In this document: piece after piece, positions 18,924-43,970 of the stretch
How the letters are laid out: every line of letters begins with the position of its first letter
How positions within the stretch are numbered: position 1 is the stretch's first letter
DNA from: Amedibacterium intestinale
GTDB lineage: Bacteria; Bacillota_I; Bacilli_A; Erysipelotrichales; Erysipelotrichaceae
Assembly: GCF_010537335.1 (NCBI RefSeq)
Contig: NZ_AP019711.1
Location: 1,550,001 to 1,614,000 of the forward strand
DNA: 64,000 nucleotides
Direction of reading: 5' to 3'
The notes under the pieces: model-generated
What the model saw: the letters and a program-made list of their open reading frames with translations, nothing else
Told to the model about the DNA's origin: nothing
Databases searched by the model: none
Made by a program: the position numbers and the translations under genes

Positions 18924-18970
18924 ATTTTTCTCCTATACTACTATTTTTATACTATAACATAATTTTGATT

Positions 18971-19003: not shown

Positions 19004-19016
19004 GTATTTTATGATA

Positions 19017-20501
<1,485 letters not shown>

Positions 20502-22895: not shown

Positions 22896-22910
22896 AAGAC
22901 ACCTCCTATA

Positions 22911-24347
22911 TTAATCTAAATCCTCTCCATTTGAGGAAATGACTTTCTTATACCAGTAAAAACTATCTTTTCGATATCGTTTCATTTCGGCTGTTTTTGC
23001 TTTTTCATCATCTTCATCACGATCGACATAAATAAATCCATAACGCTTTGTAATTCCTTCACGTGTGGAAACTAAGTCAACAGCACTCCATGGACAATAC
23101 CCAAAAATATCTGCTCCTTCTTCAATACCTAGCTTCATCTGTTTTATCGTTTCTTTTAAATGTTCAATACGATAAGAATCATGAATAGTACCATCATCTT
23201 CCAAAGTATCCGCTCTACCATAACCATTTTCTGTAATAATAAGTGGTAAATGATAACGATCACTTAAACGTCTTGCAGTTACACGAATACAGTATGGATC
23301 AAAAGAATGTCCATCTTCTCCTTTTGGAAACTTATCATTTTCTACACTTTTACCAACACCAGGTTTATCCATCAATGCTTTTAAATAACTTAAGTCACGA
23401 TTATCTGCACCCTCAAAAATGCCATAATCCATCTCATAAAAATCTAAAACTTCTACTGTATCATTTCCATAACAGTTAAATCCTATAAAATCAGGATGAC
23501 AACTACGTAAAAGTTCCATATCCCCATCTTCAATTTCTAATTTGATATGATGATTTTCAAAATAGGTATTGACACTTTTTGGATAAGTACCAAACACTAA
23601 TGGATCCAAATAAAAATTATTTCTTAAATCATCCATGTTATAAGCAGCTATCTGATCTTTCGGATCACAAGTTTTTGGATAAGCTGTTGTAATATTAGGA
23701 GCTGGTCCAATTTTCGCATGTGGACACATTTCATGACATAAATGAATAGCTTTTGCCTGTACAACGATTTGAATATGTGCCTGATTATACAAATCATTCA
23801 AATCGTTCCTTTTAAATGTTCCCCCCATCATATCTACTGCACCAAAGAAAATCAGCATATTTTGTTCATTATAAGTTAACCAGTAGTTAACATCATCTTT
23901 GAAGTTTTCAAACAATACTTTGCAATAGTTGACGTAAGCATCCATCATACGTCGATCTCTCCAGCTTCCATATTTTTCTTCTAATGCCAAAGGCAAATCA
24001 AAGTGGAAAATTATAACAACAGGTTCAATACCATATTTGTGACATTCTTTAAATACATCTTTGTAAAAGGCAATACCTTCTTTATTAATTTCTCCTTCTC
24101 CTTTTGGTAAAATACGTGACCAGGAAATAGACATACGATATGCTTTAAATCCCATTTCTGCCATTAACGCAATATCTTCTTTGTAATGATGATAAAAATC
24201 AGAAGCATAGTGGAAAGAACAAGTTCCTTTATTCAAAGGTTTTACATCCCAAATGGATAATCCTCTTCCTCCTTCATCATATCCTCCTTCTATTTGTGCA
24301 CTACTAGAACTTGCACCCCATAAAAAATTTTCTGGAAATTTTGCCAT
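22911..24347 (-). CDS. GH1 6-phospho-beta-glucosidase (divergent paralogue, operon 1)
   Basis: 478 aa. FLWGASSSSAQIEGGYDEGG at the start, acid/base Glu in LTYNEQN near residue 160 and nucleophile Glu in ITENGYG near 372; [16 protein letters not shown] retains the phosphate-site Lys and Tyr. It differs from the other GH1 proteins of this region in lacking the N-terminal insertion and in the TYNEQN variant, so its aglycone preference is likely different. Thirteen bp from the GH4 gene upstream. Confidence 0.92.
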   Translation of the reverse strand: MAKFPENFLWGASSSSAQIEGGYDEGGRGLSIWDVKPLNKGTCSFHYASDFYHHYKEDIALMAEMGFKAYRMSISWSRILPKGEGEINKEGIAFYKDVFKECHKYGIEPVVIIFHFDLPLALEEKYGSWRDRRMMDAYVNYCKVLFENFKDDVNYWLTYNEQNMLIFFGAVDMMGGTFKRNDLNDLYNQAHIQIVVQAKAIHLCHEMCPHAKIGPAPNITTAYPKTCDPKDQIAAYNMDDLRNNFYLDPLVFGTYPKSVNTYFENHHIKLEIEDGDMELLRSCHPDFIGFNCYGNDTVEVLDFYEMDYGIFEGADNRDLSYLKALMDKPGVGKSVENDKFPKGEDGHSFDPYCIRVTARRLSDRYHLPLIITENGYGRADTLEDDGTIHDSYRIEHLKETIKQMKLGIEEGADIFGYCPWSAVDLVSTREGITKRYGFIYVDRDEDDEKAKTAEMKRYRKDSFYWYKKVISSNGEDLD

Positions 24348-24359
24348 TGATATTCTCCT

Positions 24360-25757
24360 TTACAATCCTTGCTCTGTAAGCTCTCTTGCAACGTCGTCTT
24401 TGATCGTTACACCTTCTTTTTCTAACTCTTCAATCTTTTTCTTAAATCGTGGTAAATATTTCTTGTGTGCAATCAACAATTCATCTAAAACTCGTTTCGC
24501 TGTTTCTCCTGATGGAATTTGTGGATTCAAAAAGAACGCCTGTAGTGCCATACCATAATCCCCTGTTACAGCAGCTTCTTCTACGCATAATTCCATATTT
24601 TTCATACATTGCAGCCATCCTCTTTCAGCTGGATGTAAAGGTCCAAAAGCAATTGCTTTGGCTCCTGTAGCCCCAACAAAAGAAGAAACTTCAACTGCAC
24701 AATCACTTGGTAAATCAGGAATTGCACCATTATTTCTTGTTGTTACAACAATATGACGATTCGCATTGGAATAAATAGAAGCTATTGTTTCACAAGCTGC
24801 ATCTGAATAATGTGCACCACCACGTTTTGCCAACTGTTCTGGTTTATGATCTAAAGCAGGATCTTTATATAATTCAAACAATTCTTCTTCTGTTTTCTTT
24901 ACCTGCTGTCCTCTTGTACCAACTCCATGATATTCCTCTAAACCATGCTTTAACATTTCTTCTTGTCGATAGTAATAATTGTGATATCCACAAGCCAGCA
25001 TCTTCATCGCATCATATTGTTCTTTAAACAAAGGAAGTTTATGAATGTTTTCAGGTACTCCTGTATCTTTTCCACTATATATCGCATCAATTATATCCTG
25101 AGTTACCTCTTTTCCACATTCATCGTATACTTTATGCCAATGGAAATGATTTAAACCGGCAAATCGATAAGTTAACTGATCTAATGTTTTTCCAATAGTA
25201 GCTGGTTCTGCCATCATAGAAGCTATTGGAACATTGCATAAACCAATTACTTTGTCCCATTTTCCATAACGCATGACAGATTCACTTACCATACCACTTG
25301 GGTTTGTAAAGTTGATAAGCCATGCATTTGGACATAATTCCTTCATATCTTCTACTATAGATAAGATAACAGGAATCGTTCGAAAAGCTTTAAAAATCCC
25401 TCCAGCCCCATTCGTTTCCTGTCCTAACAAACCATAAGAGAATGGAATACGTTCATCTTTAATTCTGGCATTTAATAAACCTACACGAAATTGAGTTGTG
25501 ACAAAATCAGCATCTTTTAATGCTTCTCTTCGATTTAGTGTTAAATACACTTTTACATCATAAGGAGAAGCATCCCACATACGCTGTGCCATCTTTCCTA
25601 CAATTTCTAGTTTTTCTTTTCCATCTTCAATATCTACTAACCATATTTCTTTAATCGGAAGTTCTTCATAACGTTTAATAAAACCTTCCATTAATTCTGG
25701 AGTATAACTGCTACCTCCTCCAATTGTAACAATTTTTATTGGTTTCTTTTCGGACAT
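24360..25757 (-). CDS. licH: GH4 NAD-dependent 6-phospho-beta-glucosidase (LicH/CelF-like)
   Basis: 465 aa from ATG 25757, preceded by AAGGAG; an in-frame ATG at 25805 has no ribosome site. N-terminal Rossmann loop VTIGGGSSYTPEL, DFVTTQFRVG near residue 80, and the metal/redox residues in LCNVPIASM (Cys near 171) and GLNHFHWHK (His near 200). GH4 enzymes cleave phospho-glucosides by NAD+- and Mn-dependent oxidation-elimination. CNVP at the Cys motif suits the CelF/LicH (beta) rather than the maltose-6-phosphate branch. Follows the PTS permease genes, as in lic operons. Confidence 0.88.
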   Translation of the reverse strand: MSEKKPIKIVTIGGGSSYTPELMEGFIKRYEELPIKEIWLVDIEDGKEKLEIVGKMAQRMWDASPYDVKVYLTLNRREALKDADFVTTQFRVGLLNARIKDERIPFSYGLLGQETNGAGGIFKAFRTIPVILSIVEDMKELCPNAWLINFTNPSGMVSESVMRYGKWDKVIGLCNVPIASMMAEPATIGKTLDQLTYRFAGLNHFHWHKVYDECGKEVTQDIIDAIYSGKDTGVPENIHKLPLFKEQYDAMKMLACGYHNYYYRQEEMLKHGLEEYHGVGTRGQQVKKTEEELFELYKDPALDHKPEQLAKRGGAHYSDAACETIASIYSNANRHIVVTTRNNGAIPDLPSDCAVEVSSFVGATGAKAIAFGPLHPAERGWLQCMKNMELCVEEAAVTGDYGMALQAFFLNPQIPSGETAKRVLDELLIAHKKYLPRFKKKIEELEKEGVTIKDDVARELTEQGL

Positions 25758-25826
25758 AAAATTTCTCCTTCTTCTATCTAAAAAAGGAAAGGATTGATAA
25801 ATCAACCCCCTCCTCCGTTTATTTTA

Positions 25827-27125
25827 TTAAGCCTGATTTTCTGCTGCTTTTGTTTCCTGTTCTTTCTTATATAGCTGATTATCATAAACTTTAAAGAATG
25901 GATACCATACAATTCCAGCAGGAATTAACATTAAATAATCCCAGATTGCATTTTGCCAACGTAATGTTCCAAAGAATTGTGCAAATCCCATTGGCATCAA
26001 TGTCATAATTGGTACGAATGCAGGAATTAGCCATCCAGTCTGATATCCGATTAATGTACATAACATAACTACTAGAATTGCTAGTACATAAGGAATACAT
26101 AAGATAGGATTATACATAATAGGCATACCGAATGTCATTGGTTCATTGATACCAAACCAGCCTGGAACCAAAGCAATTTTTGAAACCGCTCTAATTTGTT
26201 CAGATTTTGCTTTTAAACCAAAGATTGCCAAAGGAAGTGTATTACCTGTTCCTCCACAAAGTGCCATCGCACCAAATAAAGATACTGGATAGAATGTCAA
26301 TGCTTCAATACCACCTTGTGCATACGCTGCAGCATTTGCAGATAAAGCCTGCATCATCAATGGCATTAACACAGACATAAGAATCATTGTTCCATGAATC
26401 CCAAAACACCATAACAAACCAGCAAATCCACAAATGACGAACATTCCTGATACAGAAGTTAAAGCATTTAATGGTGCAGCTAAAATTGCCATAAATCCAG
26501 AACAAATACCAAAGGCACCGCCAGTTGCTGTTTGAATAATGATTTGTAAAGCATACATTGGAATCAATGCAAATGCCAAAGGAAGAATTGCAGTAAATCC
26601 ATTAACCAGTGATGGTGGACATACATCTGGCATTTTTACACGAATGTTGTGTGCAATACAGAATTTTTCAATCTGACATACAACAAATACACATAAGAAA
26701 CCAATGAACATTCCTGATGATCCCAAGTAAGTTACATCAATAACACTAGCACCAGCCTCATTGACACCCCATGTACAGGCAATCAAAGTAAATACGATGG
26801 TTGTTTGTACAGCAGACATAACTGGAGATTTCAAACCAATAGCTTTTCCATATTGATATCCCATGATAAGAACGATCCACAGAGATAACAAATCCATTGT
26901 GAAGTGATAAGGAGCATATAAAATATTATAAATTGCATCTCCATTTTCAAACAAACCAACCATTGGTCCTACGGCACAAATAATTGAGAAGATGGCACCA
27001 ACCATGATTGGCGCCATACAAGACATCATTGCACCTTGTAAAGCTGATAAAAACTTATTTGATCCTAACTTTTGTCCAAATTCCTGTAATTTTATCATCA
27101 CAGGACTATTAAAGATTCCATCCAT
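25827..27125 (-). CDS. celB: PTS cellobiose/lichenan EIIC permease
   Basis: 432 aa, about 10 membrane segments. MVGAIFSIICAVGPMVGLF near the start, LWCFGIHGTMI near residue 235 and WFGINEPMTFGMPIMYNP near 320 are hallmark segments of lactose/cellobiose-family EIIC. Imports the beta-glucoside while it is phosphorylated by EIIB. Third gene of operon 1 after EIIA and EIIB. Confidence 0.93.
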   Translation of the reverse strand: MDGIFNSPVMIKLQEFGQKLGSNKFLSALQGAMMSCMAPIMVGAIFSIICAVGPMVGLFENGDAIYNILYAPYHFTMDLLSLWIVLIMGYQYGKAIGLKSPVMSAVQTTIVFTLIACTWGVNEAGASVIDVTYLGSSGMFIGFLCVFVVCQIEKFCIAHNIRVKMPDVCPPSLVNGFTAILPLAFALIPMYALQIIIQTATGGAFGICSGFMAILAAPLNALTSVSGMFVICGFAGLLWCFGIHGTMILMSVLMPLMMQALSANAAAYAQGGIEALTFYPVSLFGAMALCGGTGNTLPLAIFGLKAKSEQIRAVSKIALVPGWFGINEPMTFGMPIMYNPILCIPYVLAILVVMLCTLIGYQTGWLIPAFVPIMTLMPMGFAQFFGTLRWQNAIWDYLMLIPAGIVWYPFFKVYDNQLYKKEQETKAAENQA

Positions 27126-27916: not shown

Positions 27917-28089
27917 GCTATACTAGAAAACATGCAAATTCACAGTATACATTTATCTAGTGTATAGATTTTCCCTTCAAAAAAAAGCTTAGTGTTTAAA
28001 TAATCACGCTTGCGTATGTCATTTCTTATAATCCGTATAAAACCACCTTCATTTGATACAAGTTTCCATCTTCATGATATAATACAGAC

Positions 28090-28602
28090 ATGAAGTTAAT
28101 AAGAAATTTTAAAATCACATCCGATGAGTTTTATGACTATTTAGAAGAAAAACTTCTTCAAGATATTCAGCAAACTACTGGAAAAAAAGTGAAGGCAAAA
28201 GAAATTAAAAAAGGATTTAGATACGACAAGAAAGACGCTTATACGACGATTACCATCAACGACTATAAACGCCATGAGATCTATTCTGCAACTGTAAAAT
28301 CAAGGACGGATTTTATCACGATTACGTATCAGACAAAAGAGACGAAAGAGGGGTTACAAATAACATTTGAAGAATATGTAGATTCTTATGACAGCGTACG
28401 TGATAAAAAAAATATTGTTTCTAGAACCTTTCATGACTGGATTTCTTTTGGACGTATGTCAAATACACTCTATGGCATACGAAATGACATTGTAAACAAA
28501 AAAGAAGGAATTTCACCTGTTAATCAAAAACAAATGGAATCCTTCAAAGGATTACGAAAAACATTAGAAAAAAAATTAAATGAAAAAGGACAGGAAGACT
28601 AA
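28090..28602 (+). CDS. DUF3284 domain protein
   Basis: 170 aa, soluble. Begins MKLIRNFKITSDEFYDYLEEKLLQDI, with TTITINDYKRHEIYSATVKSRTDFITITYQT in the middle and a basic helical tail (FKGLRKTLEKKLNEK). This matches DUF3284, a family found mainly beside cellobiose/beta-glucoside PTS genes in Firmicutes; function unknown. Divergent from the EIIA gene of operon 1, sharing the palindrome-bearing intergenic region, so probably co-regulated. Confidence 0.8.
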   Translation: MKLIRNFKITSDEFYDYLEEKLLQDIQQTTGKKVKAKEIKKGFRYDKKDAYTTITINDYKRHEIYSATVKSRTDFITITYQTKETKEGLQITFEEYVDSYDSVRDKKNIVSRTFHDWISFGRMSNTLYGIRNDIVNKKEGISPVNQKQMESFKGLRKTLEKKLNEKGQED

Positions 28603-28627
28603 CTACATAATTATTCCTGTCCTTTTC
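28583..28627. terminator. Bidirectional terminator between DUF3284 and LevR-like genes
   Basis: Arms AAAAGGACAGGAA and TTCCTGTCCTTTT with a 17-nt loop; overlaps the DUF3284 stop and ends at the LevR-like stop. Confidence 0.8.
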
Positions 28628-31273
28628 TTATATACGTTTTAATATTCTTATAATGGTTGCTATCTGTGTATCGTCAATAATAATATGAAATTTCTTTTCT
28701 AGTTCTTTCATAATTTTAGATATTATTTTAAAATCCTCCTGATATACCATGTTGATTCTTTCGTCTTCCTTCGTTATTTCAAACTTCTGACCTTCTAATA
28801 TTTTATCCAGCATACAGGCAATATGCACAAATAAACCTGTTTTTTGATCAGAATCCAAAGAATACATGACTTCAAGATCATCTATGATTTGTGGAAGAAC
28901 ACTTTTTAATTTGGAAATCGATACATAGTGGAGCTGTTCCTCCAAAAATTGATATACTTCTGTATAATTTATTCCATCTTTCGATTTAATAGGTTCAAAC
29001 AACAAAATTCTGTCCAAATCTTCTGTTTTATTTTCAAATACTTTAGAAATTGAAATAAAAGGAATTCCAAGTAATTTAGGATCATAAGTACCGACAAAAC
29101 AATGAATTTGGTATAGATTTTTAATTGTCATAATTTGCTTAATCAATTCACTTCGATTTGATATCGATAAGGCAATTACTTTCATTCCCAAATTCGAATA
29201 TTGCTCAATATACTGTTTTAATTGATAAGCTCCTCCATCCCCTGTATGACATAAAGTAACAATCACTTCTTTTCGTTTTTCTTGTTCTCCAAACATTTTT
29301 TGTAATTCAAGATTTGTTGTATGATATACATAATCAATATCTTCTTCCTGCAAACATTTACGTGCTACATCAATGCCAATCAAAGTAATCGGAACATGGA
29401 TATATCGAATCTTTACATTCTCCTCTTGTGCAATTGTATCCAGCATAGATTGGATAGAACCCATATCATAGATAACAATCACTCCCTGTCCATTGTCAAT
29501 CTGCAAAATTACAGAACGAATTTCTTCTAATGCCTGCCTTGTATCTTTTTCCAGTGCTAAATCATAACTATATACATTTTCACAATGAATCAAATTCTTT
29601 GTAACTTCCTGCAATGCTTTCGCAACTCCATGGCCATGCAGAATATATAACAATACCGGATGACATCTATTTTCTTCCTCTTCATCCTCTATTAAAAACA
29701 TAGCTAAAATAACGACTTCTTCTATGGATAGTTTTAAGTGAAAACTATCTTCCAATACCTTTGCAAGCTGCACACTAGCTGCATATTCCCTTGGATAGTC
29801 TTGAATAATTTGTATAACTTTATCATTATCAATTCGCTTTTTATCTGGCTTTAAAGTAAGCAGAGAATTGATATGAAGACATAATCCATAAAAAACACTT
29901 GGCTTAAAGCTTCTATTTAGTTCATCCTGACAAGTATTTAATATCTTCTGAACAGCATTTATTAATTTCGGATCTACAATTTTTGAAAGCTGCTCTATAT
30001 CATATGTATCCTCTAAACCATCAAAACATTTGTATCGCTTAAATAGATTTGATATATGATTATTAATAACATCTTTGATTCCCGATGAATTAATTCCTCT
30101 TTTTGACAGTTCATCGTATTGAAGCTGAATGTCTTTATATAAGTCCCTGGTTTCATGCGATGTTAAATTTTTATAATCCATATTACAATCAAAGATAAAC
30201 AACTTTTGAGTACCAAGCAATGCAAAGATTTCCTGTCCCCTCGTACGTACTTTAATAAGACTTTTTTGTACTACACTAGAAAAATCATGCAGACATACTT
30301 CTATACTGGAATTAACATCTTCTATGACCCTGACACAAGCAGTTGCACATGCTTTCCTAATTTCCATCTCTAATTCTTTGATATTCCGTGGAAAATCCGC
30401 CAGCAGCAATCCTTGCATAACTTCTTGTGTAATTTCAATGTTTCGCTTTGCATTATTTGCCTCAACAGAGAAAAAATATTTAATTAGTTCAAGTCTTTCT
30501 TTTAAGGGTCTATTTTGTAATTCAGGAAGTTCAATAACCATTGGAATTCTTTGATTAAACTGATAAAGGGCACTTGGATTACACGATAACACAAGAAAAA
30601 CATCCTTACAATCCACGGAAGACTTCCGATCTTCACTATAGATTATCCCAGATTCTATAAAACTGGATAAAAAGCTAATTTGTTTTGCGTTTAATAATTC
30701 CGCACCATCAATAAACAGCATTCCACCCTTTGCTTTATAAAATAAAGTATGTTCTAAAGAAATAGAATTATCTACTCCCCTACCAAAAATTTCTGCATCT
30801 AATTCATTTATATTTTTTTGATAATGGCGACAATTTATTTTTATAAAAGGGGCAGAAGAGGTAAAGATCTTCTTTTCTTTCGCAAAGGCATACATGGAAT
30901 AAACAAAATGTGTAGTCCCACAGCCTGGTTTCGCACTAATTAAAACATTTAAACTTCGTTTTGGATATAAAATTGCAGCTTTTGCCACTTGAAATGCATT
31001 CGCAAGACTCCCTTTTGCACCTATGAAAATTTTATCTCCATAACATATTTCTTCCATTTCATTTTTTTCAGGTATCCGATACAATACAGGTCTTCCTGTT
31101 GTTTTTTCAAGTTTTCCTTCCTTTACTAATGTGTTTAACAAACTAGAAACATTCGATCTTTGAATTTGAAAAGCATCTGCAATTTCATTCGTTGACAATC
31201 CTTCTTTATGGATACTATCTGTAAAAACTTCTCTTTGAATATACTCCAACAAACTTTCTTTTGTTGTTTTCAT
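28628..31273 (-). CDS. LevR/LicR-like PRD regulator with degenerate AAA+ domain
   Basis: 881 aa from ATG 31273 (AGGGGAG upstream; the ATG at 31297 is less good). N-terminal winged HTH (residues 5-65). Next an AAA+ domain shaped like sigma-54 activators (NINELDAEIFGRG, GGMLFIDGAELLN, FPRNIKELE), but the P-loop reads AKPGCGTTH without the usual GK[ST], the acidic pair after LFID is lost and no GAFTGA loop is present. Then a PRD, an EIIA-Man-like domain (LLYILHGHGVAKAL near 545, the His candidate) and a second PRD near the C-terminus. PTS phosphorylation of PRD histidines would set its activity. Probable regulator of operon 1. Confidence 0.85.
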   Translation of the reverse strand: MKTTKESLLEYIQREVFTDSIHKEGLSTNEIADAFQIQRSNVSSLLNTLVKEGKLEKTTGRPVLYRIPEKNEMEEICYGDKIFIGAKGSLANAFQVAKAAILYPKRSLNVLISAKPGCGTTHFVYSMYAFAKEKKIFTSSAPFIKINCRHYQKNINELDAEIFGRGVDNSISLEHTLFYKAKGGMLFIDGAELLNAKQISFLSSFIESGIIYSEDRKSSVDCKDVFLVLSCNPSALYQFNQRIPMVIELPELQNRPLKERLELIKYFFSVEANNAKRNIEITQEVMQGLLLADFPRNIKELEMEIRKACATACVRVIEDVNSSIEVCLHDFSSVVQKSLIKVRTRGQEIFALLGTQKLFIFDCNMDYKNLTSHETRDLYKDIQLQYDELSKRGINSSGIKDVINNHISNLFKRYKCFDGLEDTYDIEQLSKIVDPKLINAVQKILNTCQDELNRSFKPSVFYGLCLHINSLLTLKPDKKRIDNDKVIQIIQDYPREYAASVQLAKVLEDSFHLKLSIEEVVILAMFLIEDEEEENRCHPVLLYILHGHGVAKALQEVTKNLIHCENVYSYDLALEKDTRQALEEIRSVILQIDNGQGVIVIYDMGSIQSMLDTIAQEENVKIRYIHVPITLIGIDVARKCLQEEDIDYVYHTTNLELQKMFGEQEKRKEVIVTLCHTGDGGAYQLKQYIEQYSNLGMKVIALSISNRSELIKQIMTIKNLYQIHCFVGTYDPKLLGIPFISISKVFENKTEDLDRILLFEPIKSKDGINYTEVYQFLEEQLHYVSISKLKSVLPQIIDDLEVMYSLDSDQKTGLFVHIACMLDKILEGQKFEITKEDERINMVYQEDFKIISKIMKELEKKFHIIIDDTQIATIIRILKRI

Positions 31274-31324
31274 CCCAACTCCCCTGCCTTTCCACATATA
31301 GTATAATACATTTTAAGTCATATA

Positions 31325-31358
31325 AAAATACACCTACTTGCAGGAAGCAGGTATATTC
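31325..31358 (-). terminator. Terminator of operon 2
   Basis: Minus strand: ATACCTGCTT / AAGTAGGTGT stem, loop CCTGC, then TTTTTAT, 15 bp after the GH1 stop. Confidence 0.75.
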
Positions 31359-31373
31359 TTATAAGGTTTACAT

Positions 31374-34317
<2,944 letters not shown>

Positions 34318-34328
34318 TTACCTCCGAT

Positions 34329-34910
34329 TTATTGTATCTTAGAAAAGTCATGGTTGATTATTTCAACCAGTTTAAATTCATTATTGTCAAATTCGAATTT
34401 TAATATGCAGCAGTTGTCTAAACGCCCCTTTTTATCAACAGAACTTGTATGTTCCCAATAGCGCATAAATTGACGACAGCTTGCCCCATGAGAAACAGCC
34501 AGCACACATTGATGATCTTCCTTTTTCATAATATCCATTAATGTATCTGCTACACGTTTTCGAAAAGAAATCTCTTCTTCTCCACCATACGTCACAAAGA
34601 AATCTTTATAAGGAAGGGATGGATTAAGATCCTCGCTCTCCCCTTCAAACATACCAAAATTCCACTCTTTTAATCCTTTCACACGCTGGTATGGCATATC
34701 ACATACATATTCCAGCGTATCACATGCTCTTTCTGATGTTGAAGAATATGCATGATCAAAAACAATGTTCTTTCGTTTAAAATATTCTCCAGCAATTTTT
34801 GCCTGCTGAATACCTGTTTGTGTCAAAGGGGAATCACACCATCCCTGTATTTTTCTGCGCACATTAAACAAAGTTTGCCCATGACGCATTAAATATAGTG
34901 TTTTTTTCAT
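34329..34910 (-). CDS. Histidine phosphatase family protein (operon 2)
   Basis: 193 aa. Phosphoglycerate-mutase-like fold with catalytic LMRHGQT at residues 7-13, QGWCDSPLTQTG, the second half-site ERACDTLE near 62 and SHGAS near 140. Paralogue of 40328-40891 in operon 3. Its position inside a phospho-glycosidase operon suggests hydrolysis of a small sugar phosphate derived from the imported glycoside. Confidence 0.9.
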   Translation of the reverse strand: MKKTLYLMRHGQTLFNVRRKIQGWCDSPLTQTGIQQAKIAGEYFKRKNIVFDHAYSSTSERACDTLEYVCDMPYQRVKGLKEWNFGMFEGESEDLNPSLPYKDFFVTYGGEEEISFRKRVADTLMDIMKKEDHQCVLAVSHGASCRQFMRYWEHTSSVDKKGRLDNCCILKFEFDNNEFKLVEIINHDFSKIQ

Positions 34911-34941
34911 TGTCTTAGTTCCTTATATATGACTTGAATAT

Positions 34942-36432
<1,491 letters not shown>

Positions 36433-36493
36433 TTAAACCAAAGAAAGGTTCAATTCGTAGAATACACCCGAATTAAACCTTTATCATATGAAA

Positions 36494-38320
36494 TTAGTTT
36501 AAGCAGCTGATAATATCATCTCCTGCTTTCACAGTTCCTGATGCCATTTCTACTACATCTAAATAATCTGCTGTATTTGTAACAATTACAGGTGTAATCA
36601 TAGAATATCCTTCTGCTTTGATAGCCTCTACATCACAAGTTACAAGAACATCACCTTTTTTAACTTTATCACCTTGTTTTACATGTGCTTCAAAATATTT
36701 TCCATCTAATTTAACTGTATCCATTCCCAAGTGAATCAAGATTTCTGCGCCATTATCACTCACTAGTCCAATTGCATGTTTTGTAGGGAATAACGTCATA
36801 ACGGTTCCATCTACTGGAGATACAACTTTTCCATCTGCAGGATCGATTGCGACCCCATTTCCTAATAAACCTTGAGCAAATGCATCATCTTTTGCTTCTG
36901 ATAAAGGAAGTACATTTCCATTTATTGGGCTGCAGATAACTTCTCTTCCTTTCACAAGTTTTTCTTCTTTATTTTCGATAACTGCTTCTTTTTTGTCTTT
37001 GTATGTTACAAATGCAATGATAAATCCAATAACGATAGCAGCTACCGCAACAATAACAGCTGAAATAATACTTCCACTTCCATTTGCAGGATCAATCATT
37101 GCAGGAAGTGCAAATACACCCATTCCACCCATCGTAAACTGAGAAACACCAAGCAATACAGATAAACCGCCGATGACACCTGCGCCAACACAAGTTAAGA
37201 TAAACTGTTTTCCATTTGGAAGAGTTACCCCATAAATAGCAGGTTCTGTAACACCAAAGATACCAGAAATCCAAGCAGGCAATGCGATTGTTTTTAATTT
37301 TTTATTTTTAGATTTTAACCAAATCGCAAATACTGCACCTGTCTGCACAAAAGATGGAAAAGCAACTACTGCCATCAAAGGCTGAGGTTCTCCAGCCATT
37401 AACCCCATCATCATTGGTAAAACAACAAGTACATGACATCCTACCATGACAAGCAATTGCCATAAGAAACCAAGTAAAATACCTGCAACGATTGGACTAA
37501 ATCCATATGCTCCCTGAATAACGTTGTTAATGATCGCACCTACTTCATTTGCTGCAGGACCAATTAAACAAAATCCTACTGGAACACAAACAAATAATAC
37601 AACGGCAGGAACTACGAATGTTTTTACTACATCCGGTACTACTTTATTTAACCATTTTTCCATTGGTACTGCAATAAATGACATTACCAAAATTGGAAGC
37701 ATTGTACTTGTATAAGTCGCATTTACGTTAAATCCTAAAACGTTTAGATTTACACCTTGTAATGCTGGATAACAAAGTGCAGCTCCAAGTGTCATACCTA
37801 GATATGGATTTCCTCCTAATTTCTTAAATGCGTTAAATCCTAAAATAATAGGGAAGAACCAAAACATTGCATCGGCTGCACCTGCCAAAATCTGTCCAAG
37901 ACCAGATGCTGCAGGAATAAGACCAGCCATATCTAAAATTATATTTACACCTTTTAAAATACCACTTGCACAAAGAATTCCAATAGATGGCATAAAAATT
38001 CCTGAAATGATATCCAATGCAGCTTCAGAGAATTTACGTTTTACTTTTTCTCCACTGCCTTCTCCACCACTAATTCCAGCAACTTCACATACATCTTTGA
38101 ATACATCTGGAACATGATTTCCAATAACAACCTGATATTGTCCTGCTGTCTGCATAACAGTAACAACACCATCCATGTTTTTCAAAACATCTGTATTTGC
38201 TTTCCCTTCATCTTTTAACTGAAAACGTAGACGTGTAACACAATGTGTTAAACTTAACACATTTTCTTTACCTCCGACATTTTTAATAATGTCTTTTGCT
38301 AATTGTTCATACTTACCCAT
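36494..38320 (-). CDS. bglP: PTS beta-glucoside-specific EIIBCA
   Basis: 608 aa three-domain permease. EIIB at the N-terminus with phospho-Cys in SLTHCVTRLRFQL (about residue 27), EIIC from about 105 to 440 (multiple membrane helices, FGVTEPAIYGVTLP), and a glucose-type EIIA at the C-terminus with ILIHLGMDTVKLDG (phospho-His near 531). No EIIA gene elsewhere is needed. First gene of operon 2, preceded by a LicT-type antiterminator/terminator leader and a cre-overlapped promoter. Confidence 0.95.
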   Translation of the reverse strand: MGKYEQLAKDIIKNVGGKENVLSLTHCVTRLRFQLKDEGKANTDVLKNMDGVVTVMQTAGQYQVVIGNHVPDVFKDVCEVAGISGGEGSGEKVKRKFSEAALDIISGIFMPSIGILCASGILKGVNIILDMAGLIPAASGLGQILAGAADAMFWFFPIILGFNAFKKLGGNPYLGMTLGAALCYPALQGVNLNVLGFNVNATYTSTMLPILVMSFIAVPMEKWLNKVVPDVVKTFVVPAVVLFVCVPVGFCLIGPAANEVGAIINNVIQGAYGFSPIVAGILLGFLWQLLVMVGCHVLVVLPMMMGLMAGEPQPLMAVVAFPSFVQTGAVFAIWLKSKNKKLKTIALPAWISGIFGVTEPAIYGVTLPNGKQFILTCVGAGVIGGLSVLLGVSQFTMGGMGVFALPAMIDPANGSGSIISAVIVAVAAIVIGFIIAFVTYKDKKEAVIENKEEKLVKGREVICSPINGNVLPLSEAKDDAFAQGLLGNGVAIDPADGKVVSPVDGTVMTLFPTKHAIGLVSDNGAEILIHLGMDTVKLDGKYFEAHVKQGDKVKKGDVLVTCDVEAIKAEGYSMITPVIVTNTADYLDVVEMASGTVKAGDDIISCLN

Positions 38321-38360
38321 GTTAACTCCTCCTATTAGGTAATCAAGTGTGTTTTTGACA

Positions 38361-38448
38361 AAAGAAAAACCTATCTACAACAAAAAGAATGTAATTTCAT
38401 CTTTTCTGTTATAAATAGGTTTAGCTTGTACTTAAACAATCACTATCC
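38361..38448 (-). promoter_or_regulatory. RAT antiterminator/terminator leader of operon 2
   Basis: Minus strand: a ribonucleic antiterminator of about 32 nt (38448-38417, beginning GGATAGTGATTG and ending GCTAAACCT) overlaps the 5' arm of a terminator whose 3' arm is GTAGATAGG followed by TTTTTCTTTT (about 38375-38361). This is the BglG/SacY-type switch: bound antiterminator stabilises the RAT hairpin and prevents termination. Nearly identical to 42603-42688. Confidence 0.88.
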
Positions 38449-38463
38449 GTTTTTCACGTTTTT

Positions 38464-38499
38464 ATTATATCAATTATTTTAATTTTGTCAACGCTTTCA
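38464..38499 (-). promoter_or_regulatory. Operon 2 promoter with cre box overlapping the -35
   Basis: Minus strand: cre TGAAAGCGTTGACA (38499-38486) includes -35 TTGACA; -10 TATAAT at 38469-38464 after a 16-bp spacer. Confidence 0.85.
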
Positions 38500-38567
38500 T
38501 GCGTTTTTTTGTTTATAAAATTTTGAAGCCAATACCATTTTAACTTTAACTCAACTTGCAAAGCTAA

Positions 38568-38610
38568 AAAACACCCTCTTTCACATGGATTCAGGTGTAT
38601 ATTTCCTCAA
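38568..38610 (-). terminator. Possible terminator of operon 3
   Basis: Minus strand ACACC (38598-38594) and GGTGT (38575-38571) pair around a long loop and run into TTTTTT. The stem is short, so this is tentative. Confidence 0.35.
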
Positions 38611-38619
38611 TTCTTTATT

Positions 38620-39477
38620 CTATTTATTATCTCTATTTATAATCTTCATCATTTCTGCTGTAACTGCATAATCGTTATTATTTCCAATGATGTGATTTGC
38701 ACTTTCTTTTGCTTTTTCTGCTGCATTTTCCATTGCATAGGAATGTGGAAAACTAGCCAACATTGTGACATCATTGCCACTATCCCCAAATACTGCCACT
38801 TCTTCCTTCTTTATTCCAAGCAATTCACTCAAATACAACAAAGCCGTGCCTTTATCCGCTTCTTTTCTTGTTATTTCAATCGACATGCCATCATAAGCAA
38901 TATGGAACATATCTTTCCCAAACAAATGAAACAATCGCTCTCTAATTATCTTTTCTATGGAATCATCACAGCACATAAAATCAATCTTATAAATCTTATT
39001 TGAAGCAATTTCCTCACTACTTGCATTAAAAATATTTTTTGAAAAAAACGTACATGCAATTTCTTCATAATTTATCGCTTGTTTAAATTTATCTGGTATG
39101 TTCTCTAGTACATACGCTTCAAAAGATTCTTTATCCTGTTGAACCCATTTATCTCGCATTCCAAGAAATTCCAAAGGATAGTTAGCGAATTCTTCACAAA
39201 TGGCTTTTGTAACTTCATATGAAAAAGGATAGCTTTTCAAAAGATTATGCTTTTGATCTAATATGATGGCACCATTCATGGAAACGACATACGCAGGCAA
39301 TCTCCACAAATATTCTTCCATTTCAATTTCACGTAAATTTCTTCCTGTCGCAAAACACATCAAATAATTCTTATCGATCATTTGTTTTAAAGTATTATAA
39401 ATCTTCTCATCACAACCTGGCTGTTTACTTAACAACAAAGTTCCATCAAGATCTGTCGCAAACAATTTTATCATCAT
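38620..39477 (-). CDS. Cof-type HAD phosphatase (operon 3, distal)
   Basis: 285 aa. Motif I DLDGTLLLSKQ at residue 8, ATGRN near 44, and GDSGNDVTML near 231, with a C2B cap between. Closest in the window to the HAD protein at 43134 (both begin MIKLFA.DLDGTLL and have GNDYAV or DHAV-type tails). Substrate probably a phosphorylated sugar or polyol released from PTS substrates; not determinable from sequence. Confidence 0.9.
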   Translation of the reverse strand: MMIKLFATDLDGTLLLSKQPGCDEKIYNTLKQMIDKNYLMCFATGRNLREIEMEEYLWRLPAYVVSMNGAIILDQKHNLLKSYPFSYEVTKAICEEFANYPLEFLGMRDKWVQQDKESFEAYVLENIPDKFKQAINYEEIACTFFSKNIFNASSEEIASNKIYKIDFMCCDDSIEKIIRERLFHLFGKDMFHIAYDGMSIEITRKEADKGTALLYLSELLGIKKEEVAVFGDSGNDVTMLASFPHSYAMENAAEKAKESANHIIGNNNDYAVTAEMMKIINRDNK

Positions 39478-39493
39478 TTATTTCCAGCCTTTA

Positions 39494-40309
39494 TTACAAC
39501 GTACCCTCTAGGATTTTAGAAATAAAGTTACCTACACCATCATGATTATTATCTTCTGTAATATAATTCGCTGCACTCTTCGTTTTTTCACTACCATTTG
39601 CCATAACAACACCCATCGCAGCATTTTTTACCATATCATAATCATTATCCGCATCCCCAAAAACACAAAGTTCATCCAAAGATAAATCATGCATTTTTAA
39701 TGCTTCTATTAATCCATTTGTTTTTGTAACTCTAGAATCCATGTATTCATATAGAACACTTGCTGTTTTTAAAGAAGCAGATTTGTAATTTTCATTATGG
39801 AACGTTTTACTTTTTTCTATTACTTTTTCCATATATCCTTCATCACAAACAATCATCACTTTTGATTTCGGTTCTTTTAAAAATTCTTTAAAATCTACAA
39901 CCTTATAAGGTACCTTATCAAAATAAGATAGCATTTGAATATATTTATCATCTTTAGGAGCGTATAAAATTCCTTCATAAGGTATCGCAAAATTCAAATC
40001 CATTCCTTCATAATGATTTATAATGTCCTGAATCAGTGCTCCATCTAATGGATAATTTGATTTATCGATTCCTAAAATATAATCATAAATTTCTGCACCG
40101 CCAGTACCTACGATAATGTCTACTATATTGTTTACTCCCCATGTTTCTAACAAGGTTTTTACACTATCTACATCTCTTCCTGTACATAGACCAAACAAGA
40201 TTCCCTGTTCTTTTGCTTTTTTTATCATTTCTATCGTAAATGGAGAAACATACCCTTCATCATTCAATAAAGTTCCATCTACATCACACATAATTGCTTT
40301 TATCACCAT
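39494..40309 (-). CDS. Cof-type HAD phosphatase (operon 3)
   Basis: 271 aa. Motif I DVDGTLLNDEG, motif II CTGRDVDS near 42, motif IV GDADNDYDMV near 216. Stop-to-start distances of 16-18 bp on both sides place it in one transcript with the histidine phosphatase before and the other HAD protein after it. Confidence 0.9.
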   Translation of the reverse strand: MVIKAIMCDVDGTLLNDEGYVSPFTIEMIKKAKEQGILFGLCTGRDVDSVKTLLETWGVNNIVDIIVGTGGAEIYDYILGIDKSNYPLDGALIQDIINHYEGMDLNFAIPYEGILYAPKDDKYIQMLSYFDKVPYKVVDFKEFLKEPKSKVMIVCDEGYMEKVIEKSKTFHNENYKSASLKTASVLYEYMDSRVTKTNGLIEALKMHDLSLDELCVFGDADNDYDMVKNAAMGVVMANGSEKTKSAANYITEDNNHDGVGNFISKILEGTL

Positions 40310-40327
40310 AAGCTATCTTCTCCTCAT

Positions 40328-40891
40328 TTATCGTATTACTTCTTTTAATGTAAAGTGATGATCGTTATATTCATACACAAAAACACAACAGTTCGTAAAA
40401 CCCTTTTTTAATTCTTCGCTAGGATCTTGTACACCTCGAAGAAAGTTAAAACAAGCACCTCCATGAGAAACCGCCAATACACTTTGATGATCTTCTTTTT
40501 CCATGATTTCTGTTAATGTTTTCATCATTCTATCTTTTACATCATCACTGGATTCCCCTCCAAACTGCAAATAGTATGTTTTACACCCTTCAGGATCATC
40601 GCAATTCAAACGTTCACTTTCTCCTTCTAATTCTCCATAAAACATTTCTTTTAATCCTTTTAAACGAGTATATTGCATATCGGTAACGATTTCTAAGGTA
40701 TCACTGCAACGCTCACTTGTAGAACAATAGGCATGGTCAAAAGATATGCCATGTTCTTTAAAATATTCGGATACTTTCTTTGCCTGTTCTTTTCCCTGCT
40801 GAGTGAGTGGGGAATCACACCATCCCTGAATCTTTTTCTGTACATTAAACATTGTTTGTGCATGTCTCATCAAATATAAAGTTTTACTCAT
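40328..40891 (-). CDS. Histidine phosphatase family protein (operon 3)
   Basis: 187 aa. LMRHAQTMFN at residue 7 (catalytic His), QGWCDSPLTQQG, second His in AVSHGGACFNF near 139. Clearly paralogous to 34329-34910. The start overlaps the end of the MBL gene by 8 bp, indicating translational coupling. Confidence 0.9.
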   Translation of the reverse strand: MSKTLYLMRHAQTMFNVQKKIQGWCDSPLTQQGKEQAKKVSEYFKEHGISFDHAYCSTSERCSDTLEIVTDMQYTRLKGLKEMFYGELEGESERLNCDDPEGCKTYYLQFGGESSDDVKDRMMKTLTEIMEKEDHQSVLAVSHGGACFNFLRGVQDPSEELKKGFTNCCVFVYEYNDHHFTLKEVIR

Positions 40892-41711
40892 TCTTTTTAC
40901 TCCTTACTTCATACACTTCTCCTGGTGCCAGTATTTTTACTCTGTTTGGATTTACAACATGGTCAAGAATATTTTGTGGATTTCCATTAAAGGGCGTCAT
41001 GTCTGGTGCATCCACGCATCCCCAATGGATACAAATTAAATCACTATTAGGATATGTATTTGCCAATTGTATCGCACCTTTTAACGTAATATGCCAATCA
41101 TTATCCGCAAAATCAAATAAAATAACATCTGGAGCTGACATATGCAAATGCTCTTCTAAAAGACGTGAATCCCCCGGCAGCCAAATCGTCCCATCTTCTG
41201 TTTCCATCCAATAACCGCAATACTCTTCTTTTTTCCATTCTCTATACTGATACTTTTTCACATCATTTTGCCAGTTATGCCATGCTGGTGTTAGTTTGAA
41301 AGTTATGTTTCCTATTTGAAACGTATCGTGTATTCCATGTCCAATTCCATTGATTTGCAATTCCTTTTCCATCTGCTGTGCAACATAGTATGGTGCATGA
41401 AACTCCTTGCATTTCTCCTTTAGTTTACGACAAGTCACACGACTGAAATGATCATTATCAATATGGGTAACTAAAACAGCATCTAAAAAGGGAACACTTT
41501 CTGGAAGCATTGGCATTTCAATTAAAAGCGGCATATCAAACCCCTCCAGCAATGGATCGATCATAACATTGGTACCCTTGCTGTTTATCATAATACCGGC
41601 ATTTCCCAACCACCTGATTTGTGTACCTTCTATCTTATCAAATGCTTTTTTATCAATCAATTGTGTCTTCCCTGCTACTGCCTGTCCTTTTTCATTTATT
41701 TTAAATTTCAT
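40884..41711 (-). CDS. Metallo-beta-lactamase-fold hydrolase
   Basis: 275 aa. Metal-ligand motif VTHIDNDHFS near residue 81, IRWLGNAGIMI near 33 and LPGDSRLL / LICIHWGC toward the C-terminus, the UlaG-like/YycJ-like MBL arrangement. The classical HxHxDH reads H-I-D-N-D-H, i.e. the second His is Asp. Possibly a lactonase or phosphoester hydrolase acting on sugar derivatives. Follows licT by 30 bp with AGGAGG ribosome site. Confidence 0.85.
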   Translation of the reverse strand: MKFKINEKGQAVAGKTQLIDKKAFDKIEGTQIRWLGNAGIMINSKGTNVMIDPLLEGFDMPLLIEMPMLPESVPFLDAVLVTHIDNDHFSRVTCRKLKEKCKEFHAPYYVAQQMEKELQINGIGHGIHDTFQIGNITFKLTPAWHNWQNDVKKYQYREWKKEEYCGYWMETEDGTIWLPGDSRLLEEHLHMSAPDVILFDFADNDWHITLKGAIQLANTYPNSDLICIHWGCVDAPDMTPFNGNPQNILDHVVNPNRVKILAPGEVYEVRSKKNE

Positions 41712-41741
41712 ATATAGTTACCTCCTGCTTTTCCTTTTAAA

Positions 41742-42584
41742 TTATGAACGTTCATTCTTATATACAACTCTTGCGATATGTATTGTTAAATATAACGTTT
41801 CTTCCTGTGATAAATCATATGCATAATTTGTTTTTAAAAATTGTTTGATTTTGAGGCAGTATGCATATGCATTTTTATATTTTATTTTAATTAGATCCAG
41901 CAAATCATCACTTTGTTCATCCTGATAACTGCTTTTTGTAATCAAACGATGTGCAAAAAACTTTAAATGTGTTATAAAACGATAAAAATATACGGAATCT
42001 TCATCAAAATCTATATGGAAGAAATACTTCACGATATTCAAAATTTCCTGCATGACCTTTGTAACTTCATAAATCGTTTCCAGCTTCTCATCCATTTCTG
42101 CATTTACGATATGAAGGGCAATAAAGCCTGCTTCATCCTCATTTAACTGTACATTCAGTTTTTCTTTGATCATTTCCAATCCATGTTTTCCTATTTCAAA
42201 TTCATCTTTATAAAATTTCTTAATATCCCACAACAATACATTCTTTACGTCTACTCCTTCTTCATGACGCAGAATTGCGGTAGAAATATGATCACATAAA
42301 GAGAGATAAATGCTATCATTAAGTTTCTTTCCAAGCTTAAGTTTTACATATTTGATAATATCATCACTGATTTTCATATGTTCCACAGGGATTTCTGCAG
42401 CAAGTTCCTGAAATTTAGAAGAAACTTCATCAGATAACGTATAAACCTTGTCTATCAATTCATCCTCAATATGTTCTCCCACTTTTTTCTTAAATGCAAT
42501 TCCTTTCCCCATGGCAATGATTTCTTTATCATGCTCATTTTTGCTAACAATGACATTATTATTTAAAATTTTGTAAATTTCCAT
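41742..42584 (-). CDS. licT: BglG/LicT-family transcriptional antiterminator
   Basis: 280 aa from ATG 42584 (AGGAGAAGG upstream; an in-frame ATG at 42611 lies inside the leader terminator). N-terminal CAT RNA-binding domain (MEIYKILNNNVIVSKNEHDKEIIAMGKGIAFKKK), then two PRDs with candidate phospho-histidines in YLSLCDHISTAILRHEEG (about residue 100), EDEAGFIALHIVNAE (about 160), KFFAHRL and ETLYLTIHIARV near the end. Binds the RAT of operon 2 and, because its own leader has the same RAT, its own transcript, giving positive feedback under PTS control. Confidence 0.94.
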   Translation of the reverse strand: MEIYKILNNNVIVSKNEHDKEIIAMGKGIAFKKKVGEHIEDELIDKVYTLSDEVSSKFQELAAEIPVEHMKISDDIIKYVKLKLGKKLNDSIYLSLCDHISTAILRHEEGVDVKNVLLWDIKKFYKDEFEIGKHGLEMIKEKLNVQLNEDEAGFIALHIVNAEMDEKLETIYEVTKVMQEILNIVKYFFHIDFDEDSVYFYRFITHLKFFAHRLITKSSYQDEQSDDLLDLIKIKYKNAYAYCLKIKQFLKTNYAYDLSQEETLYLTIHIARVVYKNERS

Positions 42585-42602
42585 ATTCCTTCTCCTATAA
42601 AT

Positions 42603-42688
42603 AAAAAACACCTATCTGCAACAAAAAAGAACTCTCTCAATTCTATCTGTGCAAACAGGTTTAGCTTGTACTTAAACAATCACTATCC
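42603..42688 (-). promoter_or_regulatory. RAT antiterminator/terminator leader of licT (operon 3)
   Basis: Minus strand RAT at 42688-42657 has the same GGATAGTGATTG...GCTAAACCT sequence as 38448-38417; the overlapping terminator closes with TTGCAGATAGGTG and a T tract at 42609-42603. Confidence 0.88.
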
Positions 42689-42699
42689 AACTCTTTTAC

Positions 42700-42735
42700 A
42701 TTATAACAAGAATCAAATGATTGTCAACGCTTTCA
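42700..42735 (-). promoter_or_regulatory. licT promoter with cre box overlapping the -35
   Basis: Minus strand: TGAAAGCGTTGACA (42735-42722) with embedded -35 TTGACA, then TATAAT at 42705-42700. Same architecture as 38464-38499. Confidence 0.85.
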
Positions 42736-42748
42736 AATGATTTTCTAT

Positions 42749-42783
42749 AAAAAGACTGTAGCTATCCACTACAATCTTCTTTT
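42749..42783 (-). terminator. Terminator of the 38-aa membrane protein gene
   Basis: Minus strand: GAAGATTGTAG and CTACAGTCTT pair around TGGATAG and run into TTTTAT. Confidence 0.7.
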
Positions 42784-42832
42784 ACATTTTGAAAAGAAAC
42801 AGAGATTAAAATAAGTTATGATTTTTACTACT

Positions 42833-42949
42833 CTACAGATTCATTTTCTTGTCCTGCATTTCTCTAAGAACATTATAAATTTTCTTTAGGAAAAAAACGA
42901 TATCTACCAAGCACAAAACAGCAACAATTAATAGAATGTACATAATCAT
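42833..42949 (-). CDS. Single-pass membrane micropeptide, 38 aa
   Basis: ATG at 42949 has a strong GGAGG site 6 nt upstream; the gene encodes MIMYILLIVAVLCLVDIVFF, then a charged tail LKKIYNVLREMQDKK, and is followed by its own terminator. One N-terminal transmembrane helix (residues 2-20) and an amphipathic cytoplasmic helix. Small size, strong ribosome site and private terminator support a genuine short gene; no family recognised. It lies between licT and a divergent HAD gene. Confidence 0.6.
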   Translation of the reverse strand: MIMYILLIVAVLCLVDIVFFLKKIYNVLREMQDKKMNL

Positions 42950-43133
42950 ATAGTTCCTCCTCTCCCTTGCGATTCTGTAAACCATTGCTTTTCTCTAAAT
43001 AAATACTAGCATATACGATTTGATAAAACAATAACAGTTACAAATGGAAGTGTATATACCTTTTATCAATTATTTTATTCTATTCTATTAGAAGGTATTT
43101 TGTTATAATTACATGGTATGGGGTGATGAGTAT

Positions 43134-43970
43134 ATGATAAAACTTTTCGCATCTGATTTAGATGGAACTTTACTTAATGAACTTCATGAATCTGATGAAG
43201 TTATATTTAATTCAATACAGCAGGTATTAAATAAGAATCTTTATTTTACAATTGCGACTGGAAGAGATTTAAATGGCAGTCTTAGAAATACTGGATTTGA
43301 GACTTTACCTATATATAAGATTTGTATGAATGGAGCATTTATCGCTGCACCAAACAAAGAAATTCTCTATAAGAAAGAAATAGACAAAGCTTTTTTGAAA
43401 GAAATACTTACACAATTTCCTAATATCCATTTTGATTGTATTTCTATAGATCATACATATGTTCAAGGAACAAAGAAGGAATATATACAGCATTTTTATT
43501 CTTCAAACATCTGGAAAAATCTTCATTTCTCAAAGGAAATTTTAGAAGGTTTCATTTCTTCTCATAAATTCGAATGTTCCCTAGAAGAAATATTATCAAA
43601 AGATATTTTGAAATTGAATTGTCGTGTACATGATGAAGAAACAAGAATTCGTCTTGATAATTTTTTAGAAAATCATAAGGATTGTGTTACAAATGCACCT
43701 TTTGAAAAAGGTGCTTATGAAATCACAGACATTTCTGTAAATAAAGGAAATGCAGTTAAAACTTTAGCTGATTATTTAAATATCAACACAAAAGAAGTTG
43801 CTGTTTATGGAGATGGAGGCAATGACTTGGAAATGTTACAAATGTTTGAACACTCTTACGCAACTGAAAATGCGTGTGAAGAAGCTAAGCAATATGCAAA
43901 AGAAATTATTGGACACTGTAAAGACCACGCGGTTCCTTTACATATCATAAAAACGTTATCTAACTGTTAA
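43134..43970 (+). CDS. Cof-type HAD phosphatase
   Basis: 278 aa from ATG 43134 (GGGGTGATG ribosome site; ATG 43113 is less likely). DLDGTLLNELHE motif I, ATGRDLNG near 43, GDGGNDLEML near 222. Related to 38620-39477. A copy of its last 70 or so bases, mutated, occurs at 50602-50675 as part of a segmental duplication. A TATAAT lies just upstream at 43105. Confidence 0.9.
   Translation: MIKLFASDLDGTLLNELHESDEVIFNSIQQVLNKNLYFTIATGRDLNGSLRNTGFETLPIYKICMNGAFIAAPNKEILYKKEIDKAFLKEILTQFPNIHFDCISIDHTYVQGTKKEYIQHFYSSNIWKNLHFSKEILEGFISSHKFECSLEEILSKDILKLNCRVHDEETRIRLDNFLENHKDCVTNAPFEKGAYEITDISVNKGNAVKTLADYLNINTKEVAVYGDGGNDLEMLQMFEHSYATENACEEAKQYAKEIIGHCKDHAVPLHIIKTLSNC

Follow-up and report, generated by a model that had tools for sequence, protein, structure and literature searches.

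A 64,000-nucleotide stretch of the Amedibacterium intestinale genome (hereafter the window; positions 1550001-1614000 of NZ_AP019711.1, a single-contig genome of 2.49 Mb) carries two minus-strand operons behind matching promoters and leaders that appear to answer to one antiterminator, LicT. Operon A encodes a beta-glucoside phosphotransferase system (PTS) permease and three GH1 glycoside hydrolases, and operon B encodes LicT itself, a metallohydrolase of the metallo-beta-lactamase fold (MBL), a histidine phosphatase, and two Cof-type phosphatases of the haloacid dehalogenase (HAD) superfamily. We read this arrangement as a LicT regulon with two outputs, in which the clean-up of by-products or aglycones would be co-induced with glycoside uptake, and we give this reading a probability of roughly 0.6. 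Its regulatory part is well supported by the sequence and is modeled on known LicT and CcpA biology, and it is solely the company kept by the genes that points to the clean-up role. The control regions, given in window coordinates, comprise a catabolite-responsive element (cre), promoter boxes, the ribonucleic antiterminator (RAT), and a terminator in each case.

38486-38499, minus strand: cre of the glycoside operon, TGAAAGCGTTGACA, the 3′ part of which is the -35 box TTGACA (38486-38491)
38464-38469, minus strand: -10 box TATAAT with TG extension, glycoside operon, spacer of 16
38418-38448, minus strand: RAT (LicT target) of the glycoside leader
38361-38422, minus strand: intrinsic terminator over the 3′ half of the RAT, glycoside leader
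42722-42735, minus strand: cre of the licT operon, with the -35 box (42722-42727) inside
42700-42705, minus strand: -10 box TATAAT with TG extension, licT operon
42658-42688, minus strand: RAT of the licT leader, identical to the glycoside RAT
42600-42662, minus strand: intrinsic terminator overlapping the RAT, licT leader

An uninterrupted 32-nt block, GGATAGTGATTGTTTAAGTACAAGCTAAACCT, is identical in the two leaders and consists of the 31-nt RAT plus the next base. With up to three mismatches allowed, the RAT was found at just these two sites in the whole genome, and a reversed control gave 0. The 3′ half of each RAT doubles as the 5′ arm of the terminator, and in both leaders the RAT hairpin and the intrinsic terminator are mutually exclusive. 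The leaders fold at -27.0 and -25.8 kcal/mol (z scores of -5.8 and -4.05), and no shuffled version of either leader folded as well. Both promoters read TTGACA-16-TATAAT, matching sigma-70 at 12 of 12 positions with an extended -10 (TG), and no other promoter among the 47 listed in 28000-43200 reaches 12/12. In each, the -35 box lies within the cre, which fits the consensus, so that control by CcpA is predicted from sequence. The combined cre/-35/spacer/-10 block occurs twice in the window, where 0.00 occurrences would be expected, and the only WTGNAANCGNWNNCAW sites in the window are the two cre (0.50 expected). Because this RAT has no further copy in the genome and the promoter block none in the window, we reject the idea that operon B is a neighbor by coincidence with a RAT arisen by chance. 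The initial annotation had described the same 32-nt RAT with overlapping terminator in both leaders, as well as the same cre/-35 fusion at both promoters, and both descriptions are borne out, the former by identity and folding and the latter by the position of the -35 box. The genes and terminators behind these leaders are listed below.

36494-38320, minus strand: EIIBCA of the beta-glucoside PTS (TIGR01995, 640.4 bits, above the cut-off of 614.7)
34942-36414, minus strand: GH1a, 6-phospho-beta-glucosidase-like
34329-34910, minus strand: HPa, histidine phosphatase (branch 1) within the glycoside operon
32875-34311, minus strand: GH1b
31374-32852, minus strand: GH1c, last gene of the glycoside operon
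31292-31376, minus strand: strong intrinsic terminator stretch past GH1c (z -4.04)
41742-42584, minus strand: licT (CAT_RBD and two PRDs)
40884-41711, minus strand: MBL-fold metallohydrolase with a UlaG/NAPE-PLD/UPF0173-like fold
40328-40891, minus strand: HPb, histidine phosphatase from the clade partnered with MBLs; its gene and the MBL gene share 8 bp
39494-40309, minus strand: HAD1, Cof-type HAD-IIB phosphatase (TIGR00099, 154.3 bits, cut-off 137)
38620-39477, minus strand: HAD2, Cof-type HAD-IIB phosphatase (TIGR00099, 140.5 bits, cut-off 137)
38560-38612, minus strand: weak terminator-like hairpin and U-run past HAD2 (z -0.18)

The gene order is thus EIIBCA-GH1a-HPa-GH1b-GH1c in operon A and licT-MBL-HPb-HAD1-HAD2 in operon B, with genes separated by 16 to 30 bp or overlapping. 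GH1a and GH1c score 611.9 and 603.5 bits against NCBIfam PRK09593, below its cut-off of 639, and both are clear GH1 members in Pfam; the NCBIfam scoring covered these two, and GH1b was placed by Pfam. Operon A probably ends at GH1c, since the strong terminator sits there. This content, like the leaders and promoters, is read directly from the sequence and agrees with the initial annotation, to which it adds HPa, the end at GH1c, and the weak hairpin after HAD2. The proposed partition into a glycoside operon and a phosphatase operon is not clean because HPa, unmentioned before, lies inside the glycoside operon.

LicT scores 371 bits against NF046042 (cut-off 300). H99, H158, H206, and H269, which we take to be the phosphorylation histidines of its PRDs, are all present and align with the solved LicT chains 1tlv and 1h99, the latter carrying D at the positions of H206 and H269. 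Besides LicT, the genome encodes three CAT_RBD antiterminators, none of which shares this RAT: clearly different RAT-like sequences precede two of them, and none was seen by eye upstream of the third. The picture of one LicT with two identical targets, and of phosphatases on antiterminator-controlled transcripts, is therefore supported by the sequence. Elsewhere in the genome, at 2.13 Mb, an antiterminator-EIIBC-EIIA-GH1-HAD operon (locus L295, 4019-9080) has its own, different RAT.

To place this switch among its relatives, a relaxed RAT pattern was searched in 315 genomes of the order Erysipelotrichales (genomes and loci are cited below by G and L numbers). It returned 19 sites, in at least 16 of the 315 genomes, where 16 is a lower bound since the exact pattern skips variants such as GGATAGTAATTG in G001; the reversed control returned 0. 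Every one of the 19 sites is followed by a terminator arm and then Ts, the arm pairing with the RAT 3′ half at 9 or more of 10 pairs. Altogether, 185 of 190 RAT/arm cells are paired, a value reached in 0 of 2000 arm swaps, in a comparison that favors the true arms because they were picked as best-pairing; several columns vary in letters on both sides. licT lies directly downstream of the RAT at 16/19 sites, where the gene next to it is EIIBCA in 14 cases, a Cof HAD in G120 (before EIIBCA), and the MBL gene in the window. The three sites not before licT precede EIIBCA in the window and a secreted GH3 in each of G120 and G121 (L312, 7698-10637; L313, 2123-5005). A strict cre is found at 10/19 of the RAT promoters, and the cre/-35 fusion is thus widespread in the order. 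The circuits of G120 and G121 resemble the one described here in RAT class, in the cre-like sequence at the -35 box, and in a licT-EIIBCA-GH1 operon with a second RAT elsewhere, but their second RAT drives a secreted GH3 and the two RATs of each genome differ in their loops. With a second LicT-type leader in both, one LicT with two outputs is a known pattern in the family. It is the MBL/phosphatase/HAD cargo that is new and unusual.

The MBL structure model is confident (pLDDT of 94.3), and H83, D85, D87, H88, H145, D181, and H229, all of metal-ligand type, are invariant in 54 aligned MBL sequences. Its nearest folds are 3bv6 (Z of 26.1), 2wym (Z of 25.7), and 2wyl, all presumably UlaG or a close homologue, together with NAPE-PLD and UPF0173 chains (Z of 24.8). 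Since these top matches span only about 1.3 Z units, the protein is best described as a metallohydrolase of the UlaG/NAPE-PLD/UPF0173 group, the fold being silent on substrate. UlaG, the L-ascorbate 6-phosphate lactonase of a PTS operon, was ruled out as its identity: although 3bv6 and 2wym are among the best folds, the protein scores 23.1 bits against the UlaG model (cut-off 306), and NAPE-PLD and UPF0173 are nearly tied with them. The isothiocyanate hydrolase 6brm (Z of 21.8) ranks below the other folds and so lends no specific support.

We then considered which genes accompany the MBL elsewhere, in the neighborhoods of 80 out of 112 relatives, with open reading frames (ORFs) picked by length and neighbors counted up to four genes away on the same strand. 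The aldo/keto reductase (AKR) set derives from a BLAST cluster joined to the MBLs through a fused MBL-AKR ORF (L079, 8983-10848). Neighbors over the 80 loci were AKR in 32, TetR in 29, histidine phosphatase in 27, LysR in 10, GH1 in 4, and EIIBCA in 3; 24 of these loci have less than 3 kb on one side, and in the remaining 56 the counts were 23, 25, 21, 9, 3, and 2, respectively. ABM, flavodoxin, CMD, cupin, and MATE genes also occur nearby. Orthologues of the MBL (up to 70% identical) and of HPb (up to 79%) are adjacent and co-oriented in Erysipelotrichales and Coriobacteriia as in the window, but there they keep company with AKR, TetR or LysR, ABM, flavodoxin, CMD, or cupin genes. In the Collinsella loci L043 and L049 the order is MBL-HP-RpiR-EIIBCA-GH1, with similar arrangements in L044 and L052. 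In a 63-row tree of histidine phosphatases, a chosen sample from which rows longer than 260 aa or containing X were dropped, 27/27 MBL-linked phosphatases, HPb included, form one clade (support of 99), with HPa outside among the others; MBL linkage requires one change on this tree against 20.5 in shuffles. Judged by gene order and by this tree, the MBL and its partner phosphatase are a recurrent two-enzyme unit, and its neighbors suggest a role in processing small molecules that are reactive or foreign, with the use of beta-glucosides as a side connection. HPa is 56% identical to HPb, and its GH1-HP-GH1 setting recurs in G001 (L168), the sole other searched genome of the genus.

From these elements a mechanism can be proposed. 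LicT proteins are subject to EII-dependent inhibition and HPr-dependent activation, and they bind RATs. Without an aryl- or alkyl-beta-glucoside, EII-dependent phosphorylation would keep LicT inactive, and both transcripts would end at their leader terminators. When substrate is present, LicT bound to the identical RATs would block both terminators, leading to co-expression of EIIBCA, the three GH1 phospho-beta-glucosidases, and one histidine phosphatase from operon A and of LicT itself, the MBL hydrolase, the second histidine phosphatase, and the two Cof HADs from operon B. Being encoded on transcript B, LicT would amplify itself. In the presence of better sugars, CcpA at the -35-containing cre would shut both promoters. 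Transcript B would then represent a captured MBL and partner-phosphatase unit joined by two HADs. Its likeliest job may be a clean-up that rises with flux, in which by-products that are reactive or unusable and arise when phospho-glycosides are broken down (aglycones, lactones, phospho-esters) would be hydrolyzed and surplus phosphate esters removed. This would account for hydrolases and phosphatases rising with uptake.

Several points weigh against this reading. The family names of the MBL and the histidine phosphatases point to no substrate. The usual neighbors of the unit are not sugar genes, so the glycoside link seen here could be accidental; licT stands beside the MBL in 0 of the 80 loci, the licT-MBL arrangement having been seen in this genome alone, and no MBL was found in G001 despite its GH1-HP-GH1 genes. 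Moreover, the separation of the transcripts may be incomplete: the hairpin past HAD2 is weak, and transcription of the licT operon could run on into the leader of operon A. A more ambitious proposal, which we put forward tentatively and would sooner doubt than defend, is that the MBL and its own phosphatase clade form an undescribed two-step hydrolase unit of gut Bacillota and Actinomycetota that removes a reactive phospho-metabolite or aglycone together with aldo/keto reductases and MATE exporters, here rewired from repressor-type control to substrate-triggered antitermination, with the RNA signal for uptake of the damaging glycoside thereby also turning on detoxification. A literature search, with subscription papers mostly outside its reach, returned no paper on a LicT-controlled phosphatase operon or on an MBL/histidine-phosphatase/AKR unit. 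It likewise gave nothing on MapP, the maltose phosphate phosphatase of Enterococcus, to which we attach no weight.

The initial annotation had interpreted the phosphatases as acting on a phosphorylated product of the imported glycosides. In its strict form, they would dephosphorylate imported glycoside 6-phosphates or glucose 6-phosphate, either as an obligatory catabolic step or for the expulsion of non-cleavable phospho-glycosides, which we consider unlikely. HAD1 and HAD2 both exceed the Cof-type HAD-IIB cut-off, and Cof HADs do turn up repeatedly in glycoside operons that are run by an antiterminator or include a PTS. In G120, one lies between licT and EIIBCA (L249, RAT-licT-HAD-EIIBCA-GH1); in two other glycoside operons of this genome (at 2.13 Mb and at 18090-27125), one lies behind GH1; and G233 (L263), which belongs to the family of the window genome (f1, 69 genomes), has a GH1 141 bp upstream of a HAD1 relative on the same strand. 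Strong Cof HADs also lie within 5 kb of a GH1 or EIIC gene more often than expected in this genome (5/19 versus 1.43 expected; binomial P of 0.012), but this count includes three HADs of the very locus that prompted the test, and 2/16 of the others are near GH1. A precedent is found in SppA of Streptococcus mutans (PMC12077213). On the other hand, the same transcript already supplies three GH1s for cleaving phospho-glycosides, and dephosphorylation would be in competition with this catabolism; the MBL, too, is left without explanation. The broader interpretation thus survives in part. The recurrence of Cof HADs speaks for it, as does the presence of the genome's only two histidine phosphatases in the regulon; it is at odds with the MBL-phosphatase pair, which lies mostly outside sugar operons, and with the loci of HAD1 relatives, 8 of 10 of which lack any of the glycoside genes searched for. 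Such relatives share 65 to 72% identity with HAD1 in most of those genomes of another family of the order (f2, 43 genomes) that have one; a PTS EII lies about 3 kb away in G007, and listed neighbors include RpiR-type regulators and histidine biosynthesis genes. The operon at 18090-27125 (minus strand) reads EIIC-GH4-GH1-GH3-GH1-HAD, with a Cof-type HAD last, and a third Cof-type HAD of the locus, 37% identical to HAD2, is divergent from licT (43113-43970, plus strand).

Could operon B be passenger cargo, unrelated hydrolases that came under LicT when a promoter-RAT block was duplicated or an insertion occurred downstream of licT, and that share no function with glycoside uptake? Operon B is indeed composite: the nearest relative of licT is in f1 (61%), while those of the MBL (70%), HPb (79%), and HAD1 (72%) are in f2, and strong MBL matches (E ≤ 1e-80) occur in 4/69 f1 genomes versus 30/43 f2 genomes. 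The arrangement is, in addition, that of one genome only. A capture of cargo behind licT, with a second promoter-RAT copy placed before EIIBCA, would fit these data, and the donor is not fixed because the window sequence falls in none of the marked sets of the MBL tree. That the cargo lacks any functional link seems nevertheless a poor bet, somewhat worse than the strict phosphatase scheme. HPa and HPb belong to different clades, meaning that the regulon acquired a phosphatase on two occasions; the pairing of HPa with GH1 persists in a second species of the genus; in Collinsella, a member of another phylum, MBL-HP stands together with EIIBCA-GH1; and the genes are tightly packed.

HPa and HPb are the only His_Phos_1 proteins of the genome, one on each transcript. 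R9, H10, E82, and H143, which we assume to be the catalytic-type residues of histidine phosphatases, are invariant in 26 aligned sequences, in which HPb has RHA and the remaining 25 have RHG. Neither protein reaches the cut-off for CobC, the alpha-ribazole phosphatase (72.5 and 79.4 bits for HPa and HPb; cut-off 162.9), or for the phosphohistidine phosphatase SixA (34.5 and 40.7 bits for the two; cut-off 74.5). That the two would act in a SixA-like feedback, dephosphorylating histidines of LicT or of PTS proteins and thereby tuning their own switch, is very improbable, for although both sit in the PTS/LicT regulon and E. coli SixA, of the same superfamily, acts on the phosphocarrier NPr (PMC7948535), their SixA scores are far under the cut-off, they are nearer to CobC/PhoE-type small-molecule phosphatases, and the HPb clade lies mostly outside PTS loci. 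Forty histidine phosphatase loci were fetched, all anchored except L195 and L197. A MATE gene lies within 11 bp in 5/38 anchored loci, on HPa's side of the tree and not among MBL partners, and one further locus, L195, has a single ORF fusing histidine phosphatase and MATE exporter (3124-5097). In L204 (6238-7671), a calcineurin-like phosphoesterase domain and a histidine phosphatase are encoded by one ORF. Enrichment of histidine phosphatases near GH1 across the order was weak and was dropped as a candidate signal: a same-strand GH1 within 1.5 kb was found in 1/38 loci, that of the same-genus genome, and a GH1 on either strand within this distance in 6/63 tree rows, the window counted.

Comparison with described systems sets off the unusual part of the regulon. 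The second target of LicT in B. subtilis is bglS. The LicT/BglG beta-glucoside PTS operons, such as S. mutans licT-bglP and B. subtilis bglPH, share with the window a two-PRD LicT, a RAT overlapping a promoter-proximal terminator, and licT beside EIIBCA and GH1. Here, however, the second transcript encodes no glucanase or glycosidase but an MBL, a histidine phosphatase, and two HADs, and its RAT is identical to the first. LicT controls bglPH in B. subtilis, and S. mutans licT-bglP yields a short terminated transcript without inducer, with the RAT 4 bases past the start site (PMC1489936). SppA of S. mutans is a phosphohydrolase of hexose phosphates, chiefly of fructose 1-phosphate (PMC12077213); it is likewise a sugar-induced phosphatase in a PTS setting, but it is controlled by its own repressor, SppR, and not by antitermination, and it is by setting alone that it can be likened to the HADs here. 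The MBL and partner-phosphatase pair is widespread and offers a well-delimited object for functional assignment. To our knowledge, little is known of how gut bacteria protect themselves against toxic aglycones and trapped phospho-glycosides. From plant glycosides, they free bioactive and toxic aglycones, e.g., isothiocyanates from sinigrin, via PTS and phospho-beta-glucosidase (PMC8660893). A hydrolase-phosphatase set tied to uptake by one RNA switch would provide a direct, testable handle on such self-protection.

Behind the glycoside operon, positions 28628-31297 (minus strand) encode a PRD/AAA/EIIA-man regulator resembling LevR/DagR. A scan of the window for sigma-54 -12/-24 elements gave 4 matches versus 4.68 expected and no convincing promoter of this type. 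Membership of the regulator in operon A was rejected in view of the strong terminator lying between them.

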